In this document: piece by piece, positions 31,947 through 58,529 of the stretch
How the letters are laid out: every line of letters begins with the position of its first letter
How positions within the stretch are numbered: position 1 is the first letter of the stretch
Assembly: GCA_913757435.1 (NCBI GenBank)
Contig: CAJYDM010000004.1
Location: 186,001-250,000 of the forward strand
Length of the DNA: 64,000 nt
DNA from: Syntrophomonas sp. DTU019
GTDB taxonomy: Bacteria; Bacillota; Syntrophomonadia; Syntrophomonadales; Syntrophomonadaceae
Reading direction: 5' to 3'
Position numbers and translations under genes: made by a program
The notes under the pieces: generated by a model
The model's database searches: none
What the model was told of the DNA's origin: nothing
What the model saw: the letters and a program-made list of their open reading frames with translations, nothing else

Positions 31947-32065
31947 ATCAGCTGCTCCTTTATTCATATATCTCCAACAGGGAGTGTCGGGCAAAACCTT
32001 TCAGCCTAATAGCCTCCAGGTTTTGCCCCGTCTTTTCACTCCTTAACAATACTACGTTTGAAGCC

Positions 32066-35000
32066 TTATTGCAGAATCACAGGGTTATGGTCTTTAGCAT
32101 TGGTCAATTCATCCACGATATAGACCTTGATCACATCCCCGGCTTGCACATTAAAACCAGCCTGGGCAGTATCAACCTCGTCAAAGTCGGCTACAGTAGA
32201 GTTGATCTGCAACTGACTGCCATTCCTTAGATGGGTAAAGACTACGGTCTCATCGCCGCTATGAGCAAATACCGGTTCAATATTGACCGTGAAGTAATTG
32301 AACCCGGAAACTCCAGCATTAACAGTCATAGTCTTTATACCGTCCTGGGTTTCCCCTATGTCATAAGTCGAATCAGGGACAGGGGTTACTGTATAGACCG
32401 GGTTGCCGGTTGCTGCGCTTACTAACTCAATACTTACAATATTGCCGATTGAACTTGACCCGCTCACCGCAGGACCCACCAGGCGCAACGGCCATTTGTC
32501 ATCAGTTTCGGGAATGGGGAATTCATCAAGCAGGTTGGCAATAATGTAGTCACTATTACGGATAATGTCGGCACTATCTATAGTTACTGTAGCACCATCA
32601 CCAGCCGTAATTACAACCTGGTACCCTGATTGAGCCAGTTCATCATTGAAGGCCTCATTAGAATGCTGGTCGGCATCATCAACAAATCCCACCAGGAACC
32701 AGAGGGGCATGCCTTCCCACTTACGTCCTTTAGTATCGGTGTAGCTTGCCTTGTGATTGGCACCGAACTGGCAGGCAAGAGCTGTTTCAAAATAGGTTTT
32801 GCTGATATCACTACTTATACCACCAATTTTGGTTCCATCCAGCTCCAGTTTCCAATCACCCTGGGGTACGGTGTATACTCTGATGGTAGTAATATACTTC
32901 GCGGACAACCCGGCACAGGAAGGATACATGATTTTATTATCTTCGTAGTAATGCCAGTATGCTTCCGGAAGAGTCTCGTGCATATCCATTTGATGATATA
33001 CTTTGTCTTCTGGTGTAAAGTACAAGCGCATACCATCTTTATAGTTCGGAACATAATCACCGTCAGCATACCAGGCTAAAATAGCATCCCCCTGGCGGGC
33101 ATATACTGATGGATCAGGATATATGGATGAATAAGGAAGCCTGGTCTCATAGCCATCAGAAGCTACCAAGACGATTTCTGTGCCGGTTCCCATGTCACCG
33201 ACAAGGCTGCAGAGATCACTCAGGCGGGTGCCTTTAATCGCATTGGCTATCTTGTAACCACCCAGACCGGTCTCATTCTCATCCCACATATCATCCGGGT
33301 CAAAGGTGACTCCCTGGAATTTGTATACTGTTTCTCCGTCTCCAATCACATCGAATTGCTCTATCATGTCAAGATAATTGAGGGTCTCTTCAGCTATGAT
33401 GGTGGTCCCGTCCTCTCCATACTTTACAATCCGGAGATCAGGGATGGCACCGCTGCTCTCAAAGGAGGTCAGCTCGATTTCGGCTATCTTTCCTACGCTT
33501 TTACCGGTCAGGGCTCCTGCATTGGCAACACCAGAACCTACCAGGCGCAGCGGCCAGGTATCAGTAAGCTCGGCACCATTGCATTTGTTCGCAATGATAT
33601 AGTCGCTGCTCCTATTGATATCCAGACTGTCGAAATCAACACTATAGCCGTCTGAAGCCTTTACCAGAACTTTGTAACCGGCTACAGCCTGGCTAAAGTC
33701 ATAACTGTGAGGCTGACGGTCATCTACCCAGCCGGCCAGTAACCACAGGGGTATACCTGACCAGACATTTCCATCCCCGTCAATCCATTCTACCAGGTGA
33801 CCCGAATTCGGGCAGGCAAGCCCTTCTTCGAATTCCGCCTGGGAAATCACATCACTGATCTTACCCTTCAGAGTGAGGTTCCAACTACCGGGCTCTGCCG
33901 GCGGGGTCTGCAGTTCAAGAATCTCAATGCGGGCGATATTGCCGACTGCCAAGCCACCAAGGGAACCATCATCTTTAGTAACACCGTCACCTACCAGGCG
34001 TAGAGGTGCTGAAGTGCCTGTCAGTGGCTCACCATCGCATTTGTTAGCCACGATATAATCATTGCTGTTGGCTACATCCGAACCAGCAAAAGTCTTGAAG
34101 TAAGTTCCACTTCCATCAACTACCTTCACGGTGTAGTTTTTAGCCCGAGTTTCATTAAATGTCCAGTGATTGCCGCTTTCGATGTCATCCACTGCACCTA
34201 AGAGCACCCACAGTGGAACACCGGACCATGTATTGTCATTAATGTCGGTCCATTCTTGGTAGTGACCAGAGCCAGTACATGCCAGTCCTTCTTCAAACTC
34301 TTTCTGGGTGATGGTATCCCCGATTTCCCCAATCATTTCCAGGGTCCATCCAGCGGGCGGCTCAGGCAGACCAGACAGCTCAATGCGGACTATATTGCCT
34401 ACCTGTTGCCCACCCGAGATAGCTGAACCTTTCAGATGCAGCGGCCAGCAGTCTTTATTCTTGTCACCGATTGTAAGGGGCAGTGGTTCCCCGTTTAACG
34501 TATTAGCAACGATATATGCGTCGCTGCGAGCGATATCAGCACTGTCAAGTACTGTTGACCAGCCATCGCCTGCTATAACCTTTACTTCATAGCCTGCGGC
34601 GGCCAGTTCATCATTGAAGTTAAAATGTCCGTCATCAGGATCATCATCTACGATACCAACTAACAGCCACAGGGGCATGCCTCCCCAGACGTTACCTTCA
34701 TCATCAGTCCAGGTCGCATAGTGTGATGAAGAACAGGTCAACCCTTGCTCGAAGTAAGCCTTGGTAACGGTCTCATCCTTGGCCCCGGAAAGCTGCAGGG
34801 TCCAGTCGGTAGGCACCACACCGTTAGTAACGGTGGTTTTCACCGCTGCTGTGGCTGCTGCCTTAACCGCATTAAAGTCGCTCTCATCTTCAACATCCGC
34901 ATAATAGAATTCGACCTTGTTACCATCTGCCAACTGCATCAGGTTTAAAGCATCATCAGGATTGTTATAGCCATCTTTTAAAGCGCCGTTTACATAGGCA

Positions 35001-38000
35001 TACCATGCGCTGCCGTTTTTCACATAATTGTATTCGGCTACATTATCCAGCAGCAGGGCACCGGAATTGCCATAATTCTTATCGGTAACAGCGTAGGTGA
35101 ATCCGCCAGCGATTGCGGCTTTGTGCAGCGCACCCAGTGGCGTGTTCTCATTCACCGTGTATTCCGTCTCTGAGTTGTAGGCGGTTACTGTGAATGCCTC
35201 TTCCGGATCCAGGTTTACGGTTCCGTCATAAAGAACATCAATAGTGGATAATGACACCACCGTCTTAACAGCTGCAGTTGCTGCTGCCTTGACTGCATTA
35301 AGGTCGGTGGGGTCGGAAATATCGGCTGCATAATAAAACTCAACCTTGTCTCCATCGACCAGCTCAATGACATTCAGTCCAGCGGGCGTATTCTGATACC
35401 CATCTTTGTAGACATCATTTACATATGCATACCAGTATCCCGGAGATTTGCGTTCGTACTCTCCTACATCGTCCAGCAGGAGTACCCTGTCATAGGACCA
35501 GCGCTTGTCAGACAAAACATAGGTAAAACTACCGGCCTCGGCGGCTGCCTGCAGGGCTCCCAGCGGGGTATTCTCATCAATTGTATATTGATTAGATCCA
35601 ACCGTTACTGTGAAGGTCTCCTCAGGATTCAATGTAACTGTACCCTCATAGAGGATGTCAATTGTCGGTCCACCAGAGCCTTCTACAACAGTTACAGTTA
35701 TCGAATCGGTTTTATTCCCGTCTTCGGTTGTAACCGTAATACTAGTAGTACCTTCTGCTACTGCGGTTACCAGACCGGTTGCACTTACCGTAGCCACAGC
35801 TTCATCAATGCTGCTCCAGCTTACATTCTTGTTAGTGGCATCCTCAGGTTCCACCACAGCAGTTAGCTGGACTGTCTGGCCAGTTTCCAGTTCTTGGTTG
35901 CCTTCCGTAATGCTCACGCCGGTAACGGGTATCGATGGTGGAGTGTTTACAGTGAATACAGCAAACATGGTATTGGGAGCAACTGTCGTACGTACATTAT
36001 AAGTACCGGCGGGCACTTCTGGAACAGTAATGGAGACCGGAGATATAGTGCCACTGGCATCAGTGCTTACATCTGCCCTGGGCTCATCCTCGTTCCAAGT
36101 GCCGTCATCGTTAGAGTCAAACCAAATATACTTGCCGGTTTGATTAGTCACTAAACCGTAACCTGTAACATCTATGCTGCTGCCAACTATCCCCGAGCCA
36201 GGATTCAGTACCAGGCCAGCAATCAAATATGTTACTGAATTAGCTTTGAGACCACAGGCCGGTATATCTGCCAATACCTGATATAGGCCCGGTGGTGCCG
36301 ATGGTACATACAGGCCGGGGCTACTGGCTCCCCCAGCAGTTGTGGTTGTTACTGCTGCCTTATTCTCGTCTTCATCCCAAACTTCGTTACCATTAGTGTC
36401 AAACCAGACATATCCGTCAACATTGGCTGAAAAACCTGCCAGATTCATACCGATATTGGTTTCGGGGTTACCTCTGGGAGTGGAAATTTTAATACCTGGA
36501 ACAATACCGATGCTGGCACAAGCCTCTATAGTATCATCGCGACCAATGTCAAGAAGGATGTTGTAGATACCTGTCGGCGATGATGGCCAAGACATATTAT
36601 TTACTGATATTGTACCCTCAGCTGATGTATTACTAGACTTGTAACCGCCATCATCGTATATCCCGTTGCCATTACGGTCTACAAAAAGCCGGTAGGGAGT
36701 ACTGGCCGGAAAACCGTTTCCGGTAACTGTGATATATCTAGGAGTTGTTCCCTGCTCCAAGCTGTTTCCATATTTTGGGCTAACGATTATGCCACTTCCG
36801 GTGACAGTAAATACGGCGCTAGCTTTAATACCGCCTATATCTGCCCGCACCGTATAATCTCCCGTGCTTACTGACGGAACAGTCAGGCTTGTGAGCAGGG
36901 GAATAGCTCCATCTTCGTCAGTATTTACAGCAACTGACGGTTCTTCATCGTCAAAGACTTCATTATCGTTTATGTCAAACCAAATAACTCCAGCAGCTCC
37001 AGCATTAAAGCCGCTGATGGAAATGAACGTGGTCGCCCCCGGGATTCCGGAATTGCATTGCAACTGTATCTGTGGACCAGCCGGAATCGAGTTGACAGTG
37101 ATGCTGTCGGTGAAGTTGCCATCTTCGGTTGTAACCGTAATGCTGGCAGTACCTTCTCCTACTGCAGTCACCAGGCCGGTTTCACTTACCGTTGCCACAG
37201 TTTCATCACTGCTGCTCCAGGTTGCGTTCTTATTCGTAGCATCCTCAGGCTCCACAACTGCAGTTAGCTGGAATGTCTGACCAATCTCTAATTCCTGATT
37301 ACCTTCGCTTATGCTCACGCCGCTAACAGCTACTGGCGGTGGAGTGATAACCCCATCCTGCCAAGCTCCTATCAAGGGATAGTTGTCACTATAGCTGGCA
37401 ATGGTGGTGTATGGAGTATCTGCTATACCGTTACCATCGTTATCAGCTCCGGTATAATCGCTCCAGTAATTGCCGAGTTGGCTGCTGTACTGAGTACCCT
37501 TGTAGGTGTAGCTTATCTCAGTTGAAGAATTCCAGGAGTTTTCGGTATTGCCATTAAATCCTTCGGACAACTGAGTTGTATTATCCCTAAAGTTATTCTG
37601 ATAGAATATGTTGCCAACTGGTTTAGTGGCAAGTTCCAAACCGGTGGTATTGTTGGAGATAATATTATTATTGAAAGTATTGGTATCAGCAGCTTTAATT
37701 CTGATACCCATTTGGTTTGAATCTAATGTATTGGAACTAAAAATATTGCTGTCAGTACTGTCAAAAAGGTTCAAACCTTTCCCTGATTGGTTGTTTGCAC
37801 AAGTGTTATCGCTTATAGTGTTACCGGCTGCATAGCTAAGATAGATACCGTCGCTGCCACAGACATTACAGGTGTTGTTGCTAACCGTATTGTTATTACT
37901 GTTAACGGTTATTCCTCGATTATTATTACTAAAAACATTATTCGTTATCGTACAAGATCCGCTGGGCTGACCTGAAATGTAAGTAAGTTTTATGCCCGAT

Positions 38001-39577
38001 TTGTCTGTTCCTGTTGCTCCGGAAGCCGTAAACCCTTCAATAGTGACGTTTGCGGCAGTCACCTTAAATACATCGGCATTTGTATTGGCTGCCTGTACTA
38101 TAGTCTGCGCTGCCCCGTTCTCAGACTCAATGACCAGGCTCTTATCCACGGTTATGTTCTCAGTGTATGTCCCGTCTTTTACGATGATGGTATCACCAGC
38201 ATTGGCTGCTGTGACAGCATCCTGTATTGTGCTGAAGTCAGCTCCGCCGGAATCATCTACATACCAGGTCTGGGGCGCTGGATCTGTAACCGTGATGTAG
38301 CCCTCTTTGATTTCCTCATCACTGTCCAGATCACTGGTTACGGTAAGTTTGACCGTGTATGTTCCCACTGCGGTATATTCATAGAAAGGATTCTGTTCAG
38401 TACTATCTACTACGCCATCATTGTCAAAATCCCAGGCCCATGAAGTGGGGTTTCCAGCTGACTCATCGGTGAATTGTACCGTAAGGGGTGCTGGGCCACT
38501 GGTTTTATCGGCACTAAAAGCAGCCGTAAGCAAAATCGGTGCTGCATCCATTGACTGAGTTACGGTAGCCATGCTGTACCCCTGGGCACTGACTGCTACC
38601 TTATAATCACCGGGAGTATTAAATACGTCTGCATTTATACTGATAGTTGCTTCGCTGATGGAATACTGTCCTTCAGTCAACTGTTTTCCATTAACCGTAA
38701 TACGGCTAATACCTGTTCTCCAGCCCTCATCATCAGTGAAGGTGATGTCTGCTGCCTGGCCAATTTGGTTATTTTCTGTATCGGCAGTCAGATCTGGAGG
38801 TGTTAGTACTGTCTCATTACTGTATATGTTTATAAAAGCTACGTTCTGTACTGATAAACCGGTGGTGGTAGGATATTCACCGGAGTAGTAGTACCAGTAT
38901 TGAGAATCTGCAGCCTCATGCCATTCCCAGTTGCCAAATACGTGGTAATCCCCTGAAGGTAAACCCGCAACATCAGTCGGTCCTTCTTTAGATGAAGCTG
39001 CGGCAAACCAGACCAGGCGCATGCCGTCGGTGTATCCGCTATCTGGATGTTTTCCGTCCTGATACCAGCAGACCACCATTGGCCCTTCGCGATCCGGATC
39101 ATAATTGTAAACGTTTTTATAGGCGAATCTTTTCTTAAAGCCATCAGAGGCTTTTATTTCTACCTCTTCACCATCTGCCATACCTCCTACCAAATTGCAG
39201 AGGTGCTTCAAGTTATTACCCTTCACCGCCCCCATATCTTTGGTATCCCAGTTCCTATCTTCTTCCTCGTTCCAGCGAAGCCGCTCTAGCTCCTCCGGAT
39301 CATCAGCAGGTTCATCAATAAAGACCGGGCCCTGATGATAGTAACGGGTTTCCCCATCACCCAGTACTGGTATATTGTCTGGGTCCATCAGCCAGTGATA
39401 ATCAACTTTAAGCTGGTCAATTATAGTTTTACCATCCTCAGCATACTTGGTAATGGTGAGTTCAGTAGTTGCCGCACTGGCTGGCTCAGGTACCACCATA
39501 CCTGCACACTGGAATAGGAACGCGAAAACTAACGCAATAGTTAGGCTTTTTCCCCAACCTTTTTTCTTAAAAAACAT
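32066..39577 (-). CDS. Giant secreted multidomain protein (2503 aa)
   Basis: Signal peptide 1-36. Domains in order (approximate residues): large Oxidored_molyb-like domain 38-255; DUF1533/Shr haem-interacting-like 261-345; PKD 350-435; NosD-type beta-helix 437-740; Big_2 746-830; four related Ig/IPT-like repeats from 832, 927, 1026 and 1121; Big_2 1219-1300; two DUF4430 (transcobalamin C-terminal-like) domains 1306-1410 and 1442-1545; three Oxidored_molyb-like domains from about 1590, 1742 and 1896; a second copy of the N-terminal type from 2044; another from 2239; and a C-terminal domain 2412-2503 shared with the phosphoesterase. No SLH repeats, LPXTG or C-terminal membrane helix. It looks like a large extracellular binding scaffold. 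Start ATG 39577 has AAAGGAG; a riboswitch-like leader with terminator lies 105-255 bases upstream. Confidence 0.88.
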   Translation of the reverse strand: MFFKKKGWGKSLTIALVFAFLFQCAGMVVPEPASAATTELTITKYAEDGKTIIDQLKVDYHWLMDPDNIPVLGDGETRYYHQGPVFIDEPADDPEELERLRWNEEEDRNWDTKDMGAVKGNNLKHLCNLVGGMADGEEVEIKASDGFKKRFAYKNVYNYDPDREGPMVVCWYQDGKHPDSGYTDGMRLVWFAAASSKEGPTDVAGLPSGDYHVFGNWEWHEAADSQYWYYYSGEYPTTTGLSVQNVAFINIYSNETVLTPPDLTADTENNQIGQAADITFTDDEGWRTGISRITVNGKQLTEGQYSISEATISINADVFNTPGDYKVAVSAQGYSMATVTQSMDAAPILLTAAFSADKTSGPAPLTVQFTDESAGNPTSWAWDFDNDGVVDSTEQNPFYEYTAVGTYTVKLTVTSDLDSDEEIKEGYITVTDPAPQTWYVDDSGGADFSTIQDAVTAANAGDTIIVKDGTYTENITVDKSLVIESENGAAQTIVQAANTNADVFKVTAANVTIEGFTASGATGTDKSGIKLTYISGQPSGSCTITNNVFSNNNRGITVNSNNNTVSNNTCNVCGSDGIYLSYAAGNTISDNTCANNQSGKGLNLFDSTDSNIFSSNTLDSNQMGIRIKAADTNTFNNNIISNNTTGLELATKPVGNIFYQNNFRDNTTQLSEGFNGNTENSWNSSTEISYTYKGTQYSSQLGNYWSDYTGADNDGNGIADTPYTTIASYSDNYPLIGAWQDGVITPPPVAVSGVSISEGNQELEIGQTFQLTAVVEPEDATNKNATWSSSDETVATVSETGLVTAVGEGTASITVTTEDGNFTDSITVNSIPAGPQIQLQCNSGIPGATTFISISGFNAGAAGVIWFDINDNEVFDDEEPSVAVNTDEDGAIPLLTSLTVPSVSTGDYTVRADIGGIKASAVFTVTGSGIIVSPKYGNSLEQGTTPRYITVTGNGFPASTPYRLFVDRNGNGIYDDGGYKSSNTSAEGTISVNNMSWPSSPTGIYNILLDIGRDDTIEACASIGIVPGIKISTPRGNPETNIGMNLAGFSANVDGYVWFDTNGNEVWDEDENKAAVTTTTAGGASSPGLYVPSAPPGLYQVLADIPACGLKANSVTYLIAGLVLNPGSGIVGSSIDVTGYGLVTNQTGKYIWFDSNDDGTWNEDEPRADVSTDASGTISPVSITVPEVPAGTYNVRTTVAPNTMFAVFTVNTPPSIPVTGVSITEGNQELETGQTVQLTAVVEPEDATNKNVSWSSIDEAVATVSATGLVTAVAEGTTSITVTTEDGNKTDSITVTVVEGSGGPTIDILYEGTVTLNPEETFTVTVGSNQYTIDENTPLGALQAAAEAGSFTYVLSDKRWSYDRVLLLDDVGEYERKSPGYWYAYVNDVYKDGYQNTPAGLNVIELVDGDKVEFYYAADISDPTDLNAVKAAATAAVKTVVSLSTIDVLYDGTVNLDPEEAFTVTAYNSETEYTVNENTPLGALHKAAIAGGFTYAVTDKNYGNSGALLLDNVAEYNYVKNGSAWYAYVNGALKDGYNNPDDALNLMQLADGNKVEFYYADVEDESDFNAVKAAATAAVKTTVTNGVVPTDWTLQLSGAKDETVTKAYFEQGLTCSSSHYATWTDDEGNVWGGMPLWLLVGIVDDDPDDGHFNFNDELAAAGYEVKVIAGDGWSTVLDSADIARSDAYIVANTLNGEPLPLTIGDKNKDCWPLHLKGSAISGGQQVGNIVRIELSGLPEPPAGWTLEMIGEIGDTITQKEFEEGLACTGSGHYQEWTDINDNTWSGVPLWVLLGAVDDIESGNHWTFNETRAKNYTVKVVDGSGTYFKTFAGSDVANSNDYIVANKCDGEPLTGTSAPLRLVGDGVTKDDGSLGGLAVGNIARIEILELQTPPAEPGSWNLTLKGKISDVISQAEFEEGLACPNSGHLVEWIDGDGNVWSGIPLWLLAGWVDDRQPHSYDFSQAVAGYKVLVKASDGYSVDFDSLDINRSSDYIIANKCNGAELTDTWPLRLVGSGVANAGALTGKSVGKIAEIELTSFESSGAIPDLRIVKYGEDGTTIIAEETLNYLDMIEQFDVIGDGETVYKFQGVTFDPDDMWDENETGLGGYKIANAIKGTRLSDLCSLVGDMGTGTEIVLVASDGYETRLPYSSIYPDPSVYARQGDAILAWYADGDYVPNYKDGMRLYFTPEDKVYHQMDMHETLPEAYWHYYEDNKIMYPSCAGLSAKYITTIRVYTVPQGDWKLELDGTKIGGISSDISKTYFETALACQFGANHKASYTDTKGRKWEGMPLWFLVGFVDDADQHSNEAFNDELAQSGYQVVITAGDGATVTIDSADIIRNSDYIIANLLDEFPIPETDDKWPLRLVGPAVSGSSSIGNIVSIELVSAATGNPVYTVTPVPDSTYDIGETQDGIKTMTVNAGVSGFNYFTVNIEPVFAHSGDETVVFTHLRNGSQLQINSTVADFDEVDTAQAGFNVQAGDVIKVYIVDELTNAKDHNPVILQ

Positions 39578-39681: not shown

Positions 39682-39720
39682 GTGAATAAAAAATCCGACT
39701 GCAAAGAAATCAGCCGGACG
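39682..39720 (-). terminator. Leader terminator before the giant gene
   Basis: On the minus strand TCCGGCTG and CAGTCGGA pair (8 bp, one G-T) around a 9-base loop, followed by TTTTTTATT. It follows the aptamer-like leader directly and precedes the gene by about 105 bases, so it should act as an attenuator. Confidence 0.75.
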
Positions 39721-39832
39721 CTACTATCCGTTATGACTCCTTTCCAACAGGGGAGGCACACTCGTTTCCAGGTGAACCCTAACGGCCTGAGAACCATAGT
39801 ATCAACCTTAGGCATCACAAGCTCGGAGCAAT
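39721..39832 (-). promoter_or_regulatory. Riboswitch-like leader, Moco/Tuco type (copy 1)
   Basis: Minus strand, 5' to 3': GCTCCGAGCTTG, TGATGCCTAAGG, AGGCCGTTAGGG, a GGAAAC-capped hairpin, TGCCTCCCC, GGAAAGGAGT and TAACGG closing on CCGTTA. The same blocks in the same order occur at 47861-47972, also before a surface-protein gene and also with a terminator. The CUCCGAGC...GCCUCCC...GAAA...GGAGU order resembles the molybdenum/tungsten-cofactor riboswitch as I remember it; the class assignment is inference, the shared leader is directly visible. Confidence 0.55.
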
Positions 39833-39838
39833 ATTTTT

Positions 39839-41167
39839 TTATCGGGTAATAGTTATCTGACCACCATTGGGGTCATATACCACCTCCGCTTCCAGAGTCT
39901 CACTTATAAACCGCAGGGGAACAAAAGTACGACCAGGTGGCAGAATCTCAGGAGCACAGTCAATAGTCTGTTTTTCACCGTTGACCTGAACCTGGTTGGA
40001 ATCAATAGTAAGGATAATTACCTTATCACCATAAGTAATGGTTACCTGTCTGCTTTCAGGGTTCCAACCAACTTTAGCACCTAAGGCTTCACCTACGAAA
40101 CGCACCGGTACCAGTGTACGACCGGCTTCAGCGTTGATGAACGGCTCAGCTTCCAGGATATAGGGGGTGTCGTTAACACTAGCTGCTTTTGCACCAATGG
40201 CAAGCTTAATCATCAGTGGTAGACTACCTGATGACCCGTCAGCAATCCGATATTCAAAGGTGACCACATCGCTATCCAACTTCCCGGGACCAATGGTAAC
40301 AGCCTTGATGGTTACGTTTTCAGTGATAGGCCCTATAGGGCGGTTGATATTACCCAAAACATCAGCCCGGGCTGTCCACCACCGGCTGGCGATCCAGTTA
40401 TATATAGGGCTGTTCATTGTTGGGATGCTGCCATCAATGGTGTAATGGATCTTATCATCATCACTATGAATATTGCTCAAAGCCACCATAGTTCCTGGAG
40501 GAACTGTGCCGCCAACCGGGTTGGCCTGAGGAGCATCCCACTTTTCGGGCGGGGTGGTTAAGACCTCAATTTTACTGAGATACTTTACAAACAAATTTCC
40601 GGTCTGCTCAGTAACCGTGCGCTGACCCAGCATCAGTAAGAGGGAGTTCAAATCGTTCATATATTTGGGATTATCGCTTCCTTCTACACTGATCAAGCCG
40701 ACAATTGGTTCTACCTCCACCTTCCCCGAGGGGTTGCCGGGCGAATGCCCATCAGCATCACCACCAGTTTTGAAATTCGGGAAACGATAACGCTTATCCT
40801 CGAATAGTTCTTTGACCGTGATGGTGACGGTATAACCATCGGCAGAGGTGAATCTAAGCAAAGTAGCCTCATCACGTATACCTGCCTGGTTTAGCAGTTC
40901 ATGCAGTTTGACACCCTCTCCTACATACCACTTTTTAGTAGGCCAGGTGTTTATGCAGCTATATACATACTGATGCTGCTCCATTTGCCTAAGTTGATCC
41001 AGGCTTAATACTAATGGCTTTTCCACCCCATCTCCGGTGATTTCCAGAGCATCTGATGCAGCTAATACTTCGTTTGGTGATGCAAGACAAATACTAGCAG
41101 CCAGCAACAGAATACTCAGTAGGGCAATAGTAAAACCAAAGAAACTCCTTTTTGCTCTGGTTGGCAT
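39839..41167 (-). CDS. Surface protein: Oxidored_molyb-like, chitobiase-like and copper-amine-oxidase N domains
   Basis: 442 residues. Signal peptide 1-37. Oxidored_molyb-like domain about 38-215 (LEITGDGVEKPLVLSLDQLRQM, YSCINTWPTKKW, GVKLHELLNQAGI, FTSADGYTV, KYLSKIEVL). A chitobiase C-terminal-like module follows (KIHYTIDGSIPTMNSPIYN), and then the stalk-type domain TLVPVRFVGEALGAKVGW...VPLRFISETLEAEV, which in Firmicutes often binds the cell wall. The motif YSCINTWP retains a Cys near where molybdopterin is bound in sulfite oxidases, unlike most siblings. Start ATG 41167 with AGGAGG. The gene ends just before the leader RNA of the giant gene. Confidence 0.87.
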   Translation of the reverse strand: MPTRAKRSFFGFTIALLSILLLAASICLASPNEVLAASDALEITGDGVEKPLVLSLDQLRQMEQHQYVYSCINTWPTKKWYVGEGVKLHELLNQAGIRDEATLLRFTSADGYTVTITVKELFEDKRYRFPNFKTGGDADGHSPGNPSGKVEVEPIVGLISVEGSDNPKYMNDLNSLLLMLGQRTVTEQTGNLFVKYLSKIEVLTTPPEKWDAPQANPVGGTVPPGTMVALSNIHSDDDKIHYTIDGSIPTMNSPIYNWIASRWWTARADVLGNINRPIGPITENVTIKAVTIGPGKLDSDVVTFEYRIADGSSGSLPLMIKLAIGAKAASVNDTPYILEAEPFINAEAGRTLVPVRFVGEALGAKVGWNPESRQVTITYGDKVIILTIDSNQVQVNGEKQTIDCAPEILPPGRTFVPLRFISETLEAEVVYDPNGGQITITR

Positions 41168-41239
41168 ATTACAAACACCTCCTTTCTTACCTGAGTCTTG
41201 ATAAAGTCAACTGTATGATGCATTTTTCCAATATGCCTG

Positions 41240-41548
41240 TTATTCGGTCAGCATGAATAACTTTCCGGTTGCGGGGTCTCTGTAAACCGTGCCCATTCTC
41301 TCGTAGACCTCGCCCTGGCCCTGAGTTTTGATCAGATCTTCACGTATCTCTGGGGCATCGGTCATCTCCCGGCCTTGTTCCAGGTTAACTCTCTGCCCCA
41401 CACCAAAATCAACGTTCCAGTTAATAGCCAGGGCCAGCATCAAACCACAGGCAAAAACCAGCATGGCATCAACAATATTGATGGCGCCCTCCAGAGGATT
41501 TACTTCTTCTTGCCTCCAGCGGCTATTTCTCCTCAATCCTCCGCGCAC
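41240..41548 (-). CDS. DUF2149 protein (ExbD-like partner)
   Basis: 102 residues, one transmembrane helix (NIVDAMLVFACGLMLALAI) near the N-terminus followed by an outward-facing tail. NPLEGAINIVDAMLVFACGL is the DUF2149 signature. In methanogens DUF2149 genes accompany MotA/TolQ/ExbB-type channel genes and metal-related genes. The size and topology mimic ExbD/TolR. GTG 41548 lies inside the channel gene with GGAGGTG nine bases before, so translation is coupled by a 26-base overlap. Confidence 0.85.
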   Translation of the reverse strand: MRGGLRRNSRWRQEEVNPLEGAINIVDAMLVFACGLMLALAINWNVDFGVGQRVNLEQGREMTDAPEIREDLIKTQGQGEVYERMGTVYRDPATGKLFMLTE

Positions 41549-42173
41549 GTTCCAACACCTCCGTTAGACTTTCCATTATGGCTTCCAAGGTACTCAAATA
41601 ATCTTCATACCATCTTTTGCGATACCGGGAGACAGCAAAAGCAATACCTCCGGCAGCCAAACCGGTTACTGTAGCATCAAAGGCAGTAAGCAGTGAATCG
41701 GCCAGTATTCTGGGATCGCCCTCACCCAGAGCTATCAAACCTGGTCCTAGTGGAATCAAAGTTGCCATTAACCCCAACATAGGACCGAGTCGGGTTACCA
41801 GATCAGTTCGATTAGTGATTCGTACATAATTCAATTCTTCGCTAGTCAACAGCCGACGCGCCAAAGCCTGCATTGAAGCAGACGGCAAATCTTTATTTTG
41901 GATCAATTCGCTGATGGCAGCCTTTTGGCGTCGGAATAACCGAATGCCTTCAACCTGTTTAATGATTTCTGCAACATCTTTTTCCTGAAATGTATTGATC
42001 AACTCGGGCAAATTGACCTTCATCTGGCGCCGTTCGGTCAAGGCTTCTACTAAGAGACCGCCCAATTCCATCAATGATAAAGCTAACATGAATAACAGTA
42101 CGGCAATGGTAGGTATTAATAAACCGGATGAAATGGCATGCATCATATCCTTTAACGGCAGTAAGATAGTCAT
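41523..42173 (-). CDS. MotA/TolQ/ExbB-like proton channel
   Basis: 216 residues, three membrane helices (about 15-40, 130-150, 165-185) with a cytoplasmic helical loop between the first two. The conserved core LGPMLGLMATLIPLGPGLIAL and LADSLLTAFDATVTGLAAGGIAFAVS matches the TolQ/ExbB/MotA family, which uses the proton gradient to move a partner protein. Three bases separate it from the upstream proline-rich surface protein and its end overlaps the DUF2149 gene: a three-gene energising unit. Confidence 0.9.
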   Translation of the reverse strand: MTILLPLKDMMHAISSGLLIPTIAVLLFMLALSLMELGGLLVEALTERRQMKVNLPELINTFQEKDVAEIIKQVEGIRLFRRQKAAISELIQNKDLPSASMQALARRLLTSEELNYVRITNRTDLVTRLGPMLGLMATLIPLGPGLIALGEGDPRILADSLLTAFDATVTGLAAGGIAFAVSRYRKRWYEDYLSTLEAIMESLTEVLERARRIEEK

Positions 42174-42176
42174 GTT

Positions 42177-43808
42177 CTATAATCGCTCCTTCGTATATTG
42201 CACATATTTATTGCCAGCTCCTGAAAGCAAGCACATCGTGAGCATTATGGCGGAGTAAATCTTCATCCGATCCTGGGCTTCTGTTAGCGGCAGAGGTATG
42301 GTATCGGCTGACATTTCAAACAGCTGCTGATTATCCATGATCGGCTGGGAGGCAGTATCCAGATTAGAATCTATAGCCAGGTCCTTAATATTAGCTAGGA
42401 TTTGGGCTCGCTCTTCCGGTATCGATGACTGGGGAGGAAGGGTTGCCTCCGTGGAGGCATCAGGATTAGGAGCAGAGCCGATCTCTGCATTGGGCTCCGG
42501 TTGTGGGAGCTTATCATTAGAAGGCTCCGGGGGTTTGGGCTCGGTACTATTTGCTGCTGGAGTATCTTCCTCAGCTTGCTCCTCGTCCGGTCCGTTCACA
42601 ACACAGTAAGCAGTGTAATTGCCATCCACTGTAGTAACAGTAATGACAGCCGTTCCCGGGCCAACCACTGTAACCAGACCGCGATTGTCTACGGTGGCGA
42701 CTCTGGTATCACTGGAACTCCAGATCAAATCCTGATTGGTGGCATTGAAGGGAGTCACTGTCGCCTCCAACCGAAATGTGCTTCCAACCGGTAAATCGAT
42801 TCTATTCCTATCAAGGGAAATTCCGGTAGGCGGACCACCCGGAACTTTGGTCGGATCTACCGCCTTGCCGCTCATATCAGCGGTGAATTTAAATGTAACC
42901 ACTTCGCTGTCCAGCTTGCCGGGTCCAATGGTTATCATTTTAATGATAGTGTCTTCTTTTACTTCAATGGGTTTATTGACACCTTTGACATCACCGTGCT
43001 GATCCCACCAGCGACTGGAACTCCAGTTGAACATAGGACTATTGATGGTCGGAGTGCTGCCATCAGTAGTGTAGTAAATCTTATCCTCGTTGTTATTCTT
43101 ATTGCTCAGTTCGATCTGGGTTCCTACCGGCAAAACTGTTCCACTTGGTATATTGGCTTTGGGGCTTTCCCATTTTTCGGGAGTAGTAGTAAACACCTCG
43201 ATCCTGCTTATGTACTTTAAAAAAAGATGGTTAGTCTGTTCAGTGACTGCCCGCTGCCCTAATACAAGCAGTAATGCGTCTCGATCGTTCATGGCAGACG
43301 GGTCATCACTGCCCTCGGCACTGACCAGAGCCAGAATGGGTTCTACCTCTTCAGCGTCCCGTGGAGATCCGGGAATACTCCCGTCAGTAGGATGATTATC
43401 CTTTAAACCTGGAAAATAGTAACGTTTGTCTTGTAATAGTTCTTTGACGGTGAGAGTCACCTCATAACCATCACTGGATATGAACTTGACCAGTGTGGCG
43501 TCCTCCTTTATCCCAGCCTGATCGAGCAATTCCCTTAACTTAACCCCTCGGGCCATATACCAGCGCTTGGTAGGCCAGGTATTGATCACACTATAGATGT
43601 GCTCATACTGCTGCATCGCTTCGATTTGACTCATTGACAGAGTGAGCGGGTTAGCCACACCCTCTCCACTGATCTCAATGGTGCCTGCAGCTTCGGCTGT
43701 AGGACAATTCATCAAAACTAAGGCAATCAAAAATAATATTAATAGCAGCGGGGCAATTACCAAGAGCTTGATTCTGGTCTTGGTTAAACCGGTATCATTC
43801 ACAATCAT
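42177..43808 (-). CDS. Membrane-anchored surface protein with proline-rich stalk (TonB-like topology reversed)
   Basis: 543 residues. Signal or anchor helix 13-40; Oxidored_molyb-like domain about 42-220 (IEISGEGVANPLTLSMSQIEAM, GVKLRELLDQAGI, FISSDGYEVTL); chitobiase-like module (KIYYTTDGSTPTINSPMFN); Big_2 domain about 330-410; a Pro/Glu/Ser-rich stretch about 410-470 (EPKPPEPSNDKLPQPEP); and a C-terminal hydrophobic helix (IYSAIMLTMCLLSGAG) with a basic end. The order is ligand-type domain, proline stalk, membrane helix, followed in the operon by ExbB-like and DUF2149 genes. That is the part list of a TonB system with the anchor at the other end. ATG 43808 has GGGAGAG. Confidence 0.85.
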   Translation of the reverse strand: MIVNDTGLTKTRIKLLVIAPLLLILFLIALVLMNCPTAEAAGTIEISGEGVANPLTLSMSQIEAMQQYEHIYSVINTWPTKRWYMARGVKLRELLDQAGIKEDATLVKFISSDGYEVTLTVKELLQDKRYYFPGLKDNHPTDGSIPGSPRDAEEVEPILALVSAEGSDDPSAMNDRDALLLVLGQRAVTEQTNHLFLKYISRIEVFTTTPEKWESPKANIPSGTVLPVGTQIELSNKNNNEDKIYYTTDGSTPTINSPMFNWSSSRWWDQHGDVKGVNKPIEVKEDTIIKMITIGPGKLDSEVVTFKFTADMSGKAVDPTKVPGGPPTGISLDRNRIDLPVGSTFRLEATVTPFNATNQDLIWSSSDTRVATVDNRGLVTVVGPGTAVITVTTVDGNYTAYCVVNGPDEEQAEEDTPAANSTEPKPPEPSNDKLPQPEPNAEIGSAPNPDASTEATLPPQSSIPEERAQILANIKDLAIDSNLDTASQPIMDNQQLFEMSADTIPLPLTEAQDRMKIYSAIMLTMCLLSGAGNKYVQYTKERL

Positions 43809-43982
43809 TCTCTCTCTCCCGCCTTCGGGCTGCCGACCCCGATTGGCCTATGCCCGTAGGCACCCCGTGGTTATAAGGCTGAAACAGTTCCATTAGTATT
43901 GCTGGATTGTAGTGCCGCGGTTACTATGTTCAACCTTACAATTTTCAAATTACCTGTTTAGGTGTCTGTTTCTCGGTTAAGC

Positions 43983-46900
43983 CTATAAAGCGTTGATGAA
44001 AACCGTGACTGCCTCAGCCCGGGTGGCATTTCCCTGGGGCCGCACCGTGTTATCAGGATATCCCTTGATAATTCCGTTCTTCACTGCTGTTGCTAAAGAT
44101 CCTCTAGCCCAAGGTGAGATACTGCTTTGGTCTTTAAATGACAATTGTTCCATTACCGGAGAAAACTTAGCCGCCTTCACTATCATGTGAGCCATTTGCT
44201 CGCGAGTAATATATTCATCGGGGCCGAATCTGTTATCGCCATAGCCCTCTACTACACCGTGATATGCAGCAGTAGATATGGCCTCCTCAGCCCAGTGGCC
44301 GGCAGTGTCAGCAAAGCCTTCCCCACTATGGGATTCCAGTCTGAATGCTTTCACTAGTATTGAAGCGAATTCCGCCCTGGTAATGCTATTGTCCGGCTTA
44401 AAGGTTCCATCAGGATAACCGCCTATAGCCCCGAGCGCAACTAATTGTTTTATATTGCCTTCCGCCCAGTGACCGCCAATATCGGTTAATGCAACCTGAA
44501 CCGTATCTGCTGCCATTACGGTAAATTTCGTAAAGTGGCTCACTTGCACAGTGATGGTATTTTTCGACACCTTGCCGCCGATGTCGACCCATCTTTTCTG
44601 GTCTTCATCATAGTAGTAAATAGCTGGGGTACTCTTAGAACTGACCTTTTCAGTATCGAATGCAAGCTTAAGCGTTACCGGTTTACCAAAGTCATATTTG
44701 CTTCGGCCGTCCACACTGAATTCATATACCGCGGAAATCACCTTAAAACCGTCCGGTGCAACAGGCGGTTTACTCACCCGCTCTATTTTCACTTCCACTG
44801 AGCAGGTTCCGTTCAATGCTCCGGCAGGAATTTCAATGACGGCTTCTTCTGCGAGTTTCACAATACCTCCGTCACTCGGTTTAATTAATTTAGTCACTAC
44901 TGGGTCACCGGCCACCATTATGGCAAACATAGTAAAGTGATCCACCTCAACACTTATGGTATTACCGGCTACCTTGCCACCAATATCGATCCACTTCTTT
45001 CCTTTCTGGTCATAATAGTGGATAGTCGGGGTTTCATCAGAGGCCAACTTTTCTGAATCGAATGTCAGCTTGATGGTAACCGGTTTATTAAAGCTGTAAT
45101 TACCCTCTCCGTCTATACTAAACTCATATACTCTGCCAAGAATTTTAAATCCAAAAGGTGCAGCCGGAGGCTCACTCACCCGTTCTATTTTCACTTCTAC
45201 TGGACTACTACCAGTTAAGGCTCCGCCGGGAATCTCAATGACGGCTTCCTCTCCCAGGCTTACCGTTCCCCCTTCATCGGGTTTTATCTTATCGCTGGTA
45301 TTTACCGTTCCTGTAACCTTATAGGTAAATTCGGCCACAGCGCTGTTCAACTTACCGGGACCTATGGTGATAGCTTTTATGGTAGTATCTTCAGTCACCA
45401 CTATGGGCTTATTGATTTCTTTAACAGCATCCTTGCCCCTAGAACTCCACCACCGTTTGGCTACCACGTTATAAATCGGACTATTCAGATCGGGGATGCT
45501 GCCATCAATGGTATAGTGGACCTTATCTTCATCATCATATGGACTATGCAGTTCTACCTCCGTTCCTGCCGGTACGTTTCCGGGGCTCGGATTGGCGGTG
45601 GGCTTGGCCCAAGATTCTGGGAAATCGGTGAGTACTTTTATTTCAGATACGTATTTTACAAACAGCGGCCCGGTTTGCTCGGTAACCGCTCGCTGGCCCA
45701 GCATCAAGAGCAATGCGTTGCTGTCGTTCATATAGCTCGGGTCATTAGTACCATCTGCGCTGAGCAAAGCCAGCATGGGCTCGACTGGTGTCGCGCCTGC
45801 GGCAGAACCTGGAATATGCCCGTCGGCATCGTCATCACCGCTTTTGAAGTTGGGAAAGCGATAACGCTCATCCCTCAGCAGTTCCTGAACCGTAAATGTC
45901 GTGTAATAGCCATCACTGGACATAAACCTGATCTGCTGTGCGCTTCCTTTTATCCCTACTGTATCGAACAAATCACTCAGTTTAACCCCTTTCCCCACAT
46001 ACCATCGCTTGGAGGGCCAGGTGTTAATACTACTGTAAACCTCCTGGTACTGGGGCATAGCTTCCAACTGGGACTGGGTAAACCCCTGCGGATTGGTTAC
46101 CCCATCCCCGGATATGGTTAATACAATTTTCCCGTCAGGTGGTTTGGTATCACCACTACTGGTAATCTTCTGCGTAACCACGGCATCCAGATAACCAGTG
46201 GCAATAACGATTATGGTGTAGTCGCCCTTGCTGGTGAATACCCCAAAATTAATAGTTATTACACCAGGACCGATGCTGTATTTGCCGGTAATAGGGCTTC
46301 CATTTACCGTCACTCCGGTAATGGCCTGACGCCATGATTCATTATCAGCAAAAGTCAGTTCTATGTCATTACCCACGGTGTTGTCTGAATTATCAGCGGT
46401 CAAGGTTGGAGGAGTATGGGCTTCAGTAACCAGCAGAGTAAAAGTAAAACTGTCGGTATTCCCATCACTATCGGTTACTGTCATCGTAAAGGTAAAAGTA
46501 CCGCTTTGGGTAGGTGTGCCTTCCAGAGTTGCTCCCTTCAGAATCATACCTTCGGGCAGTGAACCCTCCGTAATAGCAAAGCTATACGGCTCTATACCGC
46601 CTGCTGCCGTGAAGCTATGACCGGCATAAGCCTGGTTGAGGATAGCATTAACCAGGTTGTCCTTACTGATAGTAAGAGGTATAAAATACTCGAAAGTGGC
46701 AATTTCACTATCGGCCCGGCCAGGACCGATTACAATGGCCTTAATGGTGGTATTATCTGTTATCTCAATAGGGCGGTTTATTTCATCCAAATCATCCGCT
46801 CTTGAAGACCACCAGCGATAAGCGACCAAGTTGAACATTGGGCTTTCTATGGTTGGGTCACTGTCATCCAAGGTATAGTGAACCTTGTCTTCATCATTAT

Positions 46901-47645
46901 CAGTACTGTACAGTTTCACCAGGGTACCTGCCGGAACCTCACCGGGCGCTACTGACGCAGTGGGGGGAGCCCATTGAAGTACGCTATCAGTAAGTACTTC
47001 AATCTTTGTTACGTATTTGGCAAACCTGGCATTGGTCTGCTGGTTTACTGTTCGCTGCCCGTATAAGAAAAGATTGGCGTCAGCCCGGCTGAAATTGTCC
47101 GCATCTGTAATCACTTGGTAATCATTGGAGGAAATACTCCGGTGGGCAATAATAGCTGGCACCTGTTCAGCATCTGAGGCATCACCTATGAGATGACCAG
47201 CCAAGCCACTATCCATGAAATTAGGGAAGCAATACCGGGGTTCGCCCAAGAGATCCTGTATGGTAAAGGTAGCTTCAAAGCCGTCTCCTGAACTAATCTT
47301 TATCAGAGTAGCCTGGTCATTAATTCCTCCAGCCACATCAAGCAGCTCTTGCAGTGTTACACCTTGCCCCCTGTACCAGCTCTTGGTAGGCCAGGTGTTA
47401 ATGGTGCTGAAAATAATATCCTGCTGCTCTAAACAATAATCATCATATATTGGTACTTCACCCTGAAGCTGCTCCTGGGTAATGGTTACGCCATCAGGGT
47501 TATTCAGCCCCGGCCCCGATATGGTAATATTGCCACCGGCGGCATAAGCGGGGTCGGGTGCCAGTAAACTCACCAAACCAACGACTAACAGCCCTATAAA
47601 AATTAACGAAACAGGGTTTTTCCATATTTTATTTGCAGTACTCAT
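43983..47645 (-). CDS. SLH-anchored surface protein with two Oxidored_molyb-like domains (1220 aa)
   Basis: Signal peptide 1-36. Domains in order: Oxidored_molyb-like about 37-235 with a chitobiase-like module (KVHYTLDDSDPTIESPMFN); a He_PIG-type Ig domain (EPYSFAITEGSLPEGM); a DUF1533/Shr-like domain; a second Oxidored_molyb-like domain about 510-690 with chitobiase-like module; two ZU5-like domains (GGTVSLGEEAVIEIPGGAL and GGIVKLAEEAVIEIPAGAL); and three SLH repeats at the C-terminus (HWAEGNIKQLVALGAIGGYPDG, then HWAEEAISTAAYHGVVEGY, then WARGSLATAVKNGIIKGYPD). It should be bound to the cell wall via SLH. Start ATG 47645 follows GGAGGATGA. It heads the transcription unit and has a riboswitch-like leader and terminator. 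Confidence 0.88.
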   Translation of the reverse strand: MSTANKIWKNPVSLIFIGLLVVGLVSLLAPDPAYAAGGNITISGPGLNNPDGVTITQEQLQGEVPIYDDYCLEQQDIIFSTINTWPTKSWYRGQGVTLQELLDVAGGINDQATLIKISSGDGFEATFTIQDLLGEPRYCFPNFMDSGLAGHLIGDASDAEQVPAIIAHRSISSNDYQVITDADNFSRADANLFLYGQRTVNQQTNARFAKYVTKIEVLTDSVLQWAPPTASVAPGEVPAGTLVKLYSTDNDEDKVHYTLDDSDPTIESPMFNLVAYRWWSSRADDLDEINRPIEITDNTTIKAIVIGPGRADSEIATFEYFIPLTISKDNLVNAILNQAYAGHSFTAAGGIEPYSFAITEGSLPEGMILKGATLEGTPTQSGTFTFTMTVTDSDGNTDSFTFTLLVTEAHTPPTLTADNSDNTVGNDIELTFADNESWRQAITGVTVNGSPITGKYSIGPGVITINFGVFTSKGDYTIIVIATGYLDAVVTQKITSSGDTKPPDGKIVLTISGDGVTNPQGFTQSQLEAMPQYQEVYSSINTWPSKRWYVGKGVKLSDLFDTVGIKGSAQQIRFMSSDGYYTTFTVQELLRDERYRFPNFKSGDDDADGHIPGSAAGATPVEPMLALLSADGTNDPSYMNDSNALLLMLGQRAVTEQTGPLFVKYVSEIKVLTDFPESWAKPTANPSPGNVPAGTEVELHSPYDDEDKVHYTIDGSIPDLNSPIYNVVAKRWWSSRGKDAVKEINKPIVVTEDTTIKAITIGPGKLNSAVAEFTYKVTGTVNTSDKIKPDEGGTVSLGEEAVIEIPGGALTGSSPVEVKIERVSEPPAAPFGFKILGRVYEFSIDGEGNYSFNKPVTIKLTFDSEKLASDETPTIHYYDQKGKKWIDIGGKVAGNTISVEVDHFTMFAIMVAGDPVVTKLIKPSDGGIVKLAEEAVIEIPAGALNGTCSVEVKIERVSKPPVAPDGFKVISAVYEFSVDGRSKYDFGKPVTLKLAFDTEKVSSKSTPAIYYYDEDQKRWVDIGGKVSKNTITVQVSHFTKFTVMAADTVQVALTDIGGHWAEGNIKQLVALGAIGGYPDGTFKPDNSITRAEFASILVKAFRLESHSGEGFADTAGHWAEEAISTAAYHGVVEGYGDNRFGPDEYITREQMAHMIVKAAKFSPVMEQLSFKDQSSISPWARGSLATAVKNGIIKGYPDNTVRPQGNATRAEAVTVFINAL

Positions 47646-47777
47646 TCATCCTCCACCCCTTTTTTTACAAAATGCCTTCATCAAAATATCAGTGTCCGGT
47701 TATGGCGTAACTAACCCAACCCCCATTCACTTAATAGCAAAAACTGAAGGAAAAATAAGTAAAAGAACTAACTTAAT

Positions 47778-47810
47778 CAACAAAAACCCCCTGCACGGAC
47801 AGGAGGTTTT
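47778..47810 (-). terminator. Leader terminator before the SLH surface protein gene
   Basis: Minus strand AAAACCTCCTG, loop TCCGTG, CAGGGGGTTTT: an 11-bp stem with one G-T pair, then TTTTTGTTG. It lies between the aptamer-like leader and the gene. Confidence 0.85.
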
Positions 47811-47860
47811 CCATAAAAGCTATAAATAGCAGGAACACCGATAACGGTTTTAGCACCTAC

Positions 47861-47972
47861 TAAGATAGCGTAATAATACTCCTTTCCAGAAGGGAGGCAG
47901 AACCGTTTCCCGTTCTACCCTATCGGCCTATTTCCCATGTCTTTTTGATTTAGGCGAATAAGCTCGGAGTTT
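47861..47972 (-). promoter_or_regulatory. Riboswitch-like leader, Moco/Tuco type (copy 2)
   Basis: Minus strand blocks ACTCCGAGCTTATT, CGCCTAAA, AGGCCGATAGGGT, a GGGAAAC hairpin, CTGCCTCCC, GGAAAGGAGTA and CTATCTT pairing with GATAG. Same layout as copy 1 at 39721-39832. Its 5' end (from about 47972) is also the edge of the 183-bp tandem duplication, which repeats the first bases of the aptamer upstream. Confidence 0.55.
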
Positions 47973-48322
47973 TAGTGTTAAATTCTAGATAATATTTTCC
48001 ATATCAAGTATTCTAGTTAGACTAAGAGTTTTCCTGCACAATTCCAACAATTTTTAACAAAGTAGACCAAGTTATCTTTGTATATTCATTTCTTTTACCT
48101 AATCCGTTTAAGTCTCGATAGCTCCATTTATATGCGTTAAATAAGCTCGGAGTTTTAGTGTTAAATTCTAGATAATATTTTCCATATCAAGTATTCTAGT
48201 TAGACTAAGAGTTTTCCTGCACAATTCCAACAATTCTTAACAAAGTAGACCAAGTTATCTTTGTATATTCATTTCTTTTACCTAATCCGTTTAAGTCTCG
48301 ATAGCTCCATTTATATGCGTTA
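47957..48322. repeat. 183-bp tandem direct duplication
   Basis: 47957-48139 and 48140-48322 are the same apart from one base (CAATTTTTAAC against CAATTCTTAAC). Each copy holds an AT-rich segment with TTGATA and possible -10 boxes on the minus strand plus the first ~14 bases of the leader RNA (CTCCGAGCTTATT). The promoter of the surface-protein operon is therefore probably doubled. Confidence 0.95.
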
Positions 48323-57131: not shown

Positions 57132-57698
57132 TTAAAACAACTGATCATATTTTGTGAACTCTCCGCTAGGTTGCTTTATAGTAACAAATCCGCCGGAACG
57201 TCCGTATTTGACAGCCTGAATCTCGGCTATGGCTGCCAGGGCGATTTCTGCCGGCATGTCTCCCCCCAGATCAAGGCCGATGGGGATGTGCACCTTATCG
57301 AATGAGTGCCTGTCTGTACCCTGTGCTTCCAGAGCACTGAAGTATGCGGTGACCTTTCTCTTGTTGCCCATAATCCCTATATAACGGGCTGTAGAATCGA
57401 TAACCGCCAGCAGGGCGTCTTTATCGAATTCATGGTGGTGGCTGAGCAGGACTATGCTGGTGGAAGAGGTAATGTGGCATTTCTTAAGAAGTTCAACGAT
57501 GTCGCCAATAAGCAGGTCATCGGCGTCAGGGAACCTCTCCCGGTTCAATGACTCAGGATCATTATCTATCATAGTAATGCTATAGCTCAGTGCTGCAGCA
57601 AATTTATAAAGGTTATAAGCCACATTGCCAGATCCCACTATGATCAAAGGGTCGCCATTCACTGACCTATCAGTGAACCCGCTGTATGCCTCTTCCAT
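57132..57698 (-). CDS. XdhC-like Rossmann protein
   Basis: 188 residues from ATG 57698 (AGGAGG at 7 bases). Only the C-terminal XdhC_C Rossmann part is present: LIIVGSGNVAYNLYKFAAAL, DNDPESLNRERFP, VLLSHHHEFDKDAL, YIGIMGNKRKV, PIGLDLGGDMPAEIALAAIAEI. XdhC proteins bind and sulfurate molybdenum cofactor before insertion in xanthine dehydrogenase-type enzymes. The N-terminal CoxI/XdhC module is missing. Near the AOR operon and on the same strand. Confidence 0.85.
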   Translation of the reverse strand: MEEAYSGFTDRSVNGDPLIIVGSGNVAYNLYKFAAALSYSITMIDNDPESLNRERFPDADDLLIGDIVELLKKCHITSSTSIVLLSHHHEFDKDALLAVIDSTARYIGIMGNKRKVTAYFSALEAQGTDRHSFDKVHIPIGLDLGGDMPAEIALAAIAEIQAVKYGRSGGFVTIKQPSGEFTKYDQLF

Positions 57699-57863
57699 GC
57701 CAAGTCCTCCTAATAGTATCATTACAAACAGGTATGTTATAAATATTATTCCTCGGCTTTAGAATATGTCTGGACGTTAATTTAATATTAACCGAAATTT
57801 CTGGCTTTCGGCAGATGTTTTAATAAATTGGCACTCAATTCCAGATCTCAATACTATATATAA

Positions 57864-57896
57864 AGCCAGCAGAATCCATGGAGGATTCTGCTGGCT
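57864..57896 (-). terminator. Terminator after the GGCT-like gene
   Basis: AGCCAGCAGAATCC and GGATTCTGCTGGCT form a perfect 14-bp stem; the minus strand continues TTTATATATAG. Confidence 0.8.
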
Positions 57897-57927
57897 CGAC
57901 TATTTAGCGCTGTTTTTATAATTGTAT

Positions 57928-58293: not shown

Positions 58294-58315
58294 GCTTCCT
58301 TACTCCTTTGGTTCA

Positions 58316-58476: not shown

Positions 58477-58529
58477 AATGACTTCTACGTCCAGTCTTCC
58501 TGGTCGTAAAAACTCTGGGCTTTGGCGAA

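Follow-up and report, generated by a model that had tools for sequence, protein, structure and literature searches.

Why should an anaerobic bacterium place giant surface proteins and a membrane importer behind a pair of riboswitches, and which ligand would such switches read? This question is raised by a 64,000-nucleotide stretch of the genome of Syntrophomonas sp. DTU019 (contig CAJYDM010000004.1, positions 186,001 to 250,000), which we call the window and whose coordinates are used below unless another locus is named. A first-pass annotation of its letters had described two matching leaders with shared, ordered sequence blocks, and had likened them to the molybdenum/tungsten cofactor (Moco/Tuco) riboswitch. 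Both leaders are indeed present on the minus strand with these blocks, and both belong to that class (Rfam RF01055). We propose, with a probability of about 0.55, that they are attenuators of the RF01055 subclass lacking stem P3 and that they place under Tuco feedback a surface system which captures a pterin or a molybdenum/tungsten (Mo/W) cofactor.

Identity of the Two Leaders

A search of the window with all Rfam models (cmscan) gave three matches at gathering level, two to RF01055 and one to the cyclic di-AMP (c-di-AMP) riboswitch, the only other riboswitch match in the window. Riboswitch 2 (47981-47863, minus strand) lies 5′ of the gene for a 1220-aa S-layer protein and scores 75.6 bits (E = 1.8e-16), while riboswitch 1 (39840-39720, minus strand), situated between the 442-aa gene, whose stop codon it directly follows, and the 2503-aa gene, scores 68.7 bits (E = 1.9e-14); the gathering score of RF01055 is 36 bits. 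With model R1 the scores are 90.7 and 82 bits, respectively. In the RF01055 alignments the P3 columns are gaps in both aptamers. Since P3-less RNAs correlate with genes of the tungsten cofactor rather than of Moco (Regulski et al. 2008, PMC2408646), Tuco is the likely ligand of both.

About 100 RF01055 sites were gathered from 60 relatives, and 72 P3-less aptamers were aligned. The RNAalifold structure of this alignment has 28 pairs, 21 of them with two-sided changes. Its paired cells amount to 93.6%, as against 34-51% when the partners are slid by 1-3 columns, and the covariation score is 0.536, as against 0.075-0.138 for the slid partners. Covariation among homologous leaders is thus strong, and the RF01055 identity of the two leaders, suggested by the first-pass annotation, is confirmed.

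One structural detail of that annotation did not hold. The compensating closing stems that it had pointed out (CCGTTA/TAACGG and GATAG/CTATC) occur in the two window copies, with 6 and 5 nt, respectively; across the family they do not exceed permutation. As a pseudoknot replacing P3, such linker-to-tail stems were rejected: the 72 aligned members reach 3.31 nt, compared with 3.23 ± 0.09 nt for permuted tails, and since the complementarity is no better than with the latter, the stems are most likely due to chance.

A 183-nt tandem duplication with 99% identity (47957-48322) lies 5′ of riboswitch 2. It copies the 5′ flank of the riboswitch and the first aptamer bases (CTCCGAGCTTATT), so that a truncated aptamer start is found at about 48140. 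The c-di-AMP riboswitch (RF00379, 5499-5370, minus strand, 99.9 bits) lies elsewhere in the window.

Terminator Hairpins and the Predicted Antiterminator

A terminator and then a start codon had been reported after each leader, and a folding-based scan bears this out. The terminator-like hairpin of riboswitch 2 (47809-47784, minus strand) consists of AAACCTCCTGTCCGTGCAGGGGGTTT and a U tract, with a folding energy of −14.8 kcal/mol, and that of riboswitch 1 (39719-39693, minus strand) of GTCCGGCTGATTTCTTTGCAGTCGGAT and a U tract, with −12.1 kcal/mol; the start codons follow 217 and 142 nt 3′ of the respective aptamers. Neither of these hairpins was picked up by a simple consensus promoter/terminator scan.

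Each hairpin is also complementary to part of the aptamer that precedes it. In riboswitch 2 the hairpin arm CCUCCU (CCUCCUG) is complementary to the aptamer strand GGAAAGGAG at 47887-47879 (duplex energy −12.3 kcal/mol), and in riboswitch 1 the terminator loop/arm UGAUUUCUUU is complementary to the aptamer tail (−10.1 kcal/mol). The same arrangement is seen throughout the family: a hairpin with a U tract stands 3′ of the aptamer in 116 of 140 distinct leaders, and the conserved 3′ strand of the aptamer (GGAAAGGAG and its flank) is complementary to the 5′ arm/loop of the next terminator, with a mean duplex energy of −9.03 kcal/mol (n = 116). The control duplexes are weaker, with −5.39 kcal/mol for 87 terminators that follow other genes (p = 2e-12) and −7.03 kcal/mol for the reversed tail (p = 4e-7).

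Because the tail cannot occupy P1 and the antiterminator simultaneously, the ligand should switch the genes off. When it is absent, the 3′ strand GGAAAGGAG would pair with the 5′ arm/loop of the terminator and transcription would read on; when it is present, this strand would be kept in P1, the terminator would form, and the genes would be off. The tail-terminator complementarity therefore indicates that both leaders act as OFF switches, a direction that would be expected to hold in vivo. For riboswitch 1, the minimum free energy structure of the free state is the antiterminator (−46.7 kcal/mol), and enforcing P1 leads to the terminator (−41.2 kcal/mol). By its position, riboswitch 2 would be the gate for the entire block. 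Riboswitch 1 would act in series with it as a further gate, in front of the giant protein and, to judge from the gene order, also of the ECF (energy-coupling factor) transporter.

Genes of the Controlled Block

All genes of the block lie on the minus strand, and from their order and strand we infer one transcript. The gene next to riboswitch 2 encodes the 1220-aa S-layer protein (43983-47645), in which Pfam and hidden Markov models of the window domains detect two sulfite-oxidase-fold domains of the kind we call type A, a Shr-like HID domain, Fn3-assoc, and three SLH repeats. It is followed by a 543-aa surface protein (s543, 42177-43808) with a type A domain, Fn3-assoc, Big_2, and a C-terminal hydrophobic segment, by a MotA/TolQ/ExbB-like channel protein of 216 aa (41523-42173; PF01618, E = 4.7e-6), by a DUF2149 protein of 102 aa (41240-41548; PF09919, E = 8e-10), and by a 442-aa surface protein (s442, 39839-41167) with a type A domain, Fn3-assoc, and Cu_amine_oxidN1. 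Shr-like HID domains are found by Pfam in two proteins of the block.

Behind riboswitch 1 stands the gene of a secreted giant of 2503 aa (32066-39577) with six sulfite-oxidase-fold domains, four of which are of a second kind, type B, with a conserved Cys; it also carries a NosD-like helix, Big_2, and PKD. Further on are a purple-acid-phosphatase-like protein (30375-31994; PF16656/PF00149), which recurs in homologous loci, a 302-aa S-layer protein with three SLH repeats (28950-29858; PF00395), and a putative lipoprotein of 210 aa (28133-28765) with one sulfite-oxidase-fold domain (PF00174, E = 1.1e-8; match to the SorA profile, E = 0.012) and a lipobox-like LGC. The block ends with a complete ECF module, in which the S, T, and ATPase subunits are all present together: a YkoE-like S component fused to a sulfite-oxidase-fold domain (27022-28140; PF09819 and PF00174; YkoE 5edl, E = 6e-14), an energizing subunit with a double ATP-binding cassette (ABC) ATPase (25450-27021; PF00005 in two stretches), and a CbiQ-like T component (24611-25453; PF02361, E = 9.5e-34). 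All four PF00174 matches of the host genome are inside this block.

Conservation in Related Genomes

Searching species genomes with four domains of the block yielded 58 loci, from Syntrophomonas, Syntrophothermus, Desulfoscipio, Sporotomaculum, Pelotomaculum, Thermovorax, Dethiobacter, and others. The recurring order is SLH protein, s543, ExbB, DUF2149, s442, switch, giant, lipoprotein, and ECF genes. We read the block as a surface machine common to anaerobic Clostridia. A covariance model built from Syntrophomonadaceae and their order was used to search 772 kb of these homologous loci. It gave 49 matches, every one on the coding strand, which represent 43 distinct sites in 26 loci of several families; at the RF01055 density of the host itself, about three sites would be expected in this amount of DNA. 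Rfam's own model confirms 14 switches in seven loci. In nine loci besides the window a switch lies 6-39 nt after the s442 stop codon, and in others one to three switches precede a phosphatase gene, ApbE, or ECF genes. These differing positions indicate that the switch follows the block through rearrangements. The supposition that cofactor level governs both the surface giants and the ECF importer is thus supported, as a fit to the conserved operon order and with Tuco as the probable ligand.

Three tandem RF01055-type aptamers of a longer form, perhaps with P3, precede surface-protein genes in one locus (G024, L106 6517-7251, minus strand), and three aptamers in a row precede ApbE and a 2678-aa giant in another (G066, L220 7905-8490, plus strand). 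Seven operons without RF01055 were searched for another metabolite riboswitch in front of them; no B12/vitamin type was found there, and only one c-di-GMP-I riboswitch (L155 331-410, plus strand, 5′ of a homologous operon). The pterin-binding protein PruR, considered in the next section, acts elsewhere in c-di-GMP control.

Fold and Export of the Surface Domains

The two kinds of domain were modelled with AlphaFold2, type A from the 442-aa protein (pLDDT 93.4) and type B from the giant (pLDDT 90.6). Both models have the sulfite-oxidase fold, and for both the top Foldseek match is PruR, a periplasmic pterin-binding protein. VIA-align gives Z of 12-15 to PruR and to sulfite oxidases alike; for PruR the Z is about 12-14, with a root-mean-square deviation of 2.4-2.8 over 116-125 residues, and for the enzymes of the sulfite oxidase family it ranges over 10-15. 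A sequence search of the PDB with the type A domain returned no relative; the links are those of fold comparison and of the lipoprotein profile.

At the position of the Mo-ligating Cys, type A is variable (C, S, A, T, or V). In type B a Cys is conserved in 66 of 67 domains; an hhalign comparison gave no definite match of it to the Mo-ligand Cys of sulfite oxidase. A motif scan of 214 domain proteins found no canonical twin-arginine translocation (Tat) signal, the RRx[phi][phi]-like motifs of two of them not being canonical. Sec export in an unfolded state, without preloaded cofactor, is therefore to be expected, and uptake of a cofactor by these proteins would be possible only outside the cell.

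Tungsten and Molybdenum Genes of the Host

The host genome contains 12 RF01055 matches. Three tandem aptamers stand before tupAB-like tungstate transporter genes; further copies precede a formate dehydrogenase operon, importers of the FecBCD type, and a NitT-type importer accompanied by ModD. A gene for a tungsten-type aldehyde oxidoreductase (AFOR_N) starts about 300 bases beyond the window. Judged by its tupAB-like, formate dehydrogenase, and FecBCD-type operons together with the aldehyde oxidoreductase gene, the host is a tungsten user. The window itself also holds genes for an MFS_MOT1 molybdate transporter and for XdhC-like, ThiF-like, and NuoF-like proteins (12979-14094, plus strand, and 57132-62557, minus strand).

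The top-scoring RF01055 copy of the host (L009 16873-16994, minus strand) has no clear gene of the same orientation downstream. The first gene behind another RF01055 riboswitch encodes a TiaS/methanogenesis-marker-11-like protein (L010 9057-9809, plus strand), and such genes recur in relatives and in FecBCD operons.

Proposed Function and Its Alternatives

We suggest that, at a low level of its tungsten cofactor, the cell would display a surface system for catching cofactor. The most likely ligand to be captured by the repeated surface domains, which have the fold of sulfite oxidase and PruR, would be a pterin, and plausibly the Mo/W cofactor or a related compound; the ExbB/DUF2149 motor would assist the capture proteins, and import would fall to the ECF module, in which the S component bears the same domain. 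The data fit a role in capturing and importing a pterin or Mo/W cofactor because the block appears to be cofactor-repressed and combines surface domains of a pterin-binding fold with the ExbB/DUF2149 pair and a vitamin-class importer carrying the same domain. A more specific form of this proposal, in which anaerobic bacteria possess a dedicated, Tuco-repressed system to capture and import the tungsten or molybdenum pterin cofactor or free molybdopterin, is tentative, and we hold it to be true with perhaps one chance in three. We know of no importer for the Mo/W pterin cofactor. A 2026 review states that the mechanism by which pterins pass bacterial membranes is unknown (PMC13259868), and the literature searched offered no direct precedent for DUF2149, for pterin or Moco import, or for this surface family.

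Several observations weigh against the proposal. The predicted minimum of riboswitch 2 contains P1 and the terminator already without ligand, so that only a kinetic mechanism could account for its switching. MoaA is kept in the host and in 15 relatives, which are therefore not cofactor auxotrophs; judged by this gene, the host produces molybdopterin itself, and an argument for salvage from auxotrophy is thereby ruled out. The fold suggests that the domains bind pterin and does not prove it, and PruR, which lacks the Cys and binds reduced pterins, is probably unable to hold full Moco, its pocket reportedly being too small (PMC13259868). A number of operon loci show no RF01055 within the DNA examined. 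Lastly, the block has ApbE, FMN_bind, and Fer4_5 genes as neighbours in other genera, which speaks for redox chemistry.

These neighbours are the basis of the main alternative, a flavin-linked redox system outside the cytosol, which we regard as doubtful. Here ApbE-flavinylated FMN_bind/Fer4_5 proteins would feed electrons to the sulfite-oxidase-fold surface proteins, some of them real Mo/W enzymes, the ECF module would supply flavin or a related cofactor, and the riboswitch would match enzyme to cofactor supply. In six loci the gene that directly follows the one to three aptamers is ApbE, which also stands beside related blocks in G003, G007, G023, and G036; FMN_bind and Fer4_5 are frequent neighbours, and in L197 FMN_bind is fused to PF00174. 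The conserved type B Cys would suit an enzyme, as would the RF01055 control of the formate dehydrogenase operon in the same genome. However, the window block contains neither ApbE nor FMN_bind, and the ApbE of the host is on another contig. Type A has no conserved Mo ligand, the proteins have no canonical Tat signals by motif scan, and an OFF switch would be odd for an enzyme that requires the ligand. Capture and redox chemistry could also be combined, for example if a captured pterin were kept reduced.

Somewhat less probable still is the import of another cargo, such as heme, cobalamin, a metal chelate, or a tungstate complex, with the riboswitch merely reading tungsten shortage. ExbB/DUF2149 pairs are indeed part of the Bacteroidetes hmu loci for heme (PMC10434189), the two Shr-like HID proteins of the block agree with such a cargo, and tungstate importers of the same genome use RF01055 as well. 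On the other hand, no CobN-like gene is found among the open reading frames of the block, the only riboswitch at the seven operons without RF01055 is of the c-di-GMP-I and not of the B12/vitamin type, and the fold repeated here belongs to pterin-cofactor proteins rather than to heme or tungstate binders. That the domains, mixed as they are with Ig-like, PKD, SLH, and Fn3-assoc modules, are structural or adhesive S-layer parts without a small ligand, put under a riboswitch by rearrangement, is very improbable, since the 43 aptamers in 26 loci of several families all have the coding orientation and precede different units of the block, and since the same domain is fused to an ECF S component.

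If the capture role is true, the block would be an uptake route for a pterin or Mo/W cofactor and would suggest that cofactor is shared within syntrophic communities reliant on tungsten formate dehydrogenases. As a known RNA sensor is tied here to a widespread, uncharacterised surface machine, a testable class of ligand can be named.

Relation to Known Systems

Sulfite oxidase enzymes need a Cys ligand, and their bacterial members are usually exported by Tat. The window domains share the fold of these enzymes (SorA, SoxC, YedY/MsrP, chicken sulfite oxidase) and differ from them in that type A does not conserve the Cys ligand and that a motif scan revealed no canonical Tat signal. With PruR (7kos, 7kom, 7kp2, 7rkb; PMC13259868) they share an extracytoplasmic sulfite-oxidase fold in which, for type A, the Mo-ligating Cys is not conserved. 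PruR, however, is short, has a single domain, and works with DcpA in signalling, whereas the window domains form repeats within large surface proteins and are also joined to an importer; no GGDEF/EAL gene that would reflect a PruR-like coupling to dcpA is found in the block.

The ExbB-like/DUF2149 pair stands beside an uptake system also in the Bacteroidetes hmu locus (HmuU/HmuV; PMC10434189); the window block differs in having S-layer-anchored proteins and an ECF module instead of a CobN-like HmuS or a TonB-dependent receptor, neither of which is among its open reading frames. A YkoE-like S component, a double ABC ATPase, and a CbiQ-like T component are common to the window and the YkoE-type ECF transporter (5edl), but here a sulfite-oxidase-fold domain is fused to the S component or stands next to it, and the S component would be subject to a Moco/Tuco riboswitch. 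ApbE/FMN_bind flavinylated redox systems (PMC8238504) have in common with many of the homologous loci the ApbE, FMN_bind, and Fer4_5 genes, which the window block does not contain; the survey of those systems makes no mention of molybdenum, ECF, or Syntrophomonas (PMC8238504).

In the literature searched we found no account of this conserved operon or of what its domains are, nor of the switches in series or the antiterminator rule. The riboswitch class, its tungsten subtype, and two P3-less RNAs beside 'sulphite oxidase' genes of S. wolfei are already known (PMC2408646). The window leaders agree with RF01055 as published there in their covariance-model match, conserved core, P3-less subclass, terminators, and occurrence of tandem copies, and differ in their targets, which are S-layer/surface proteins, an ExbB/DUF2149 pair, and an ECF importer, and in the second switch inside the operon. 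Among the at least 15 RF01055 copies of S. wolfei, the two P3-less RNAs near 'sulphite oxidase' genes were unexplained exceptions (Regulski et al. 2008, PMC2408646). The genes concerned are probably members of the surface family described here, which offers an explanation for the presence of tungsten-type RNAs beside them.

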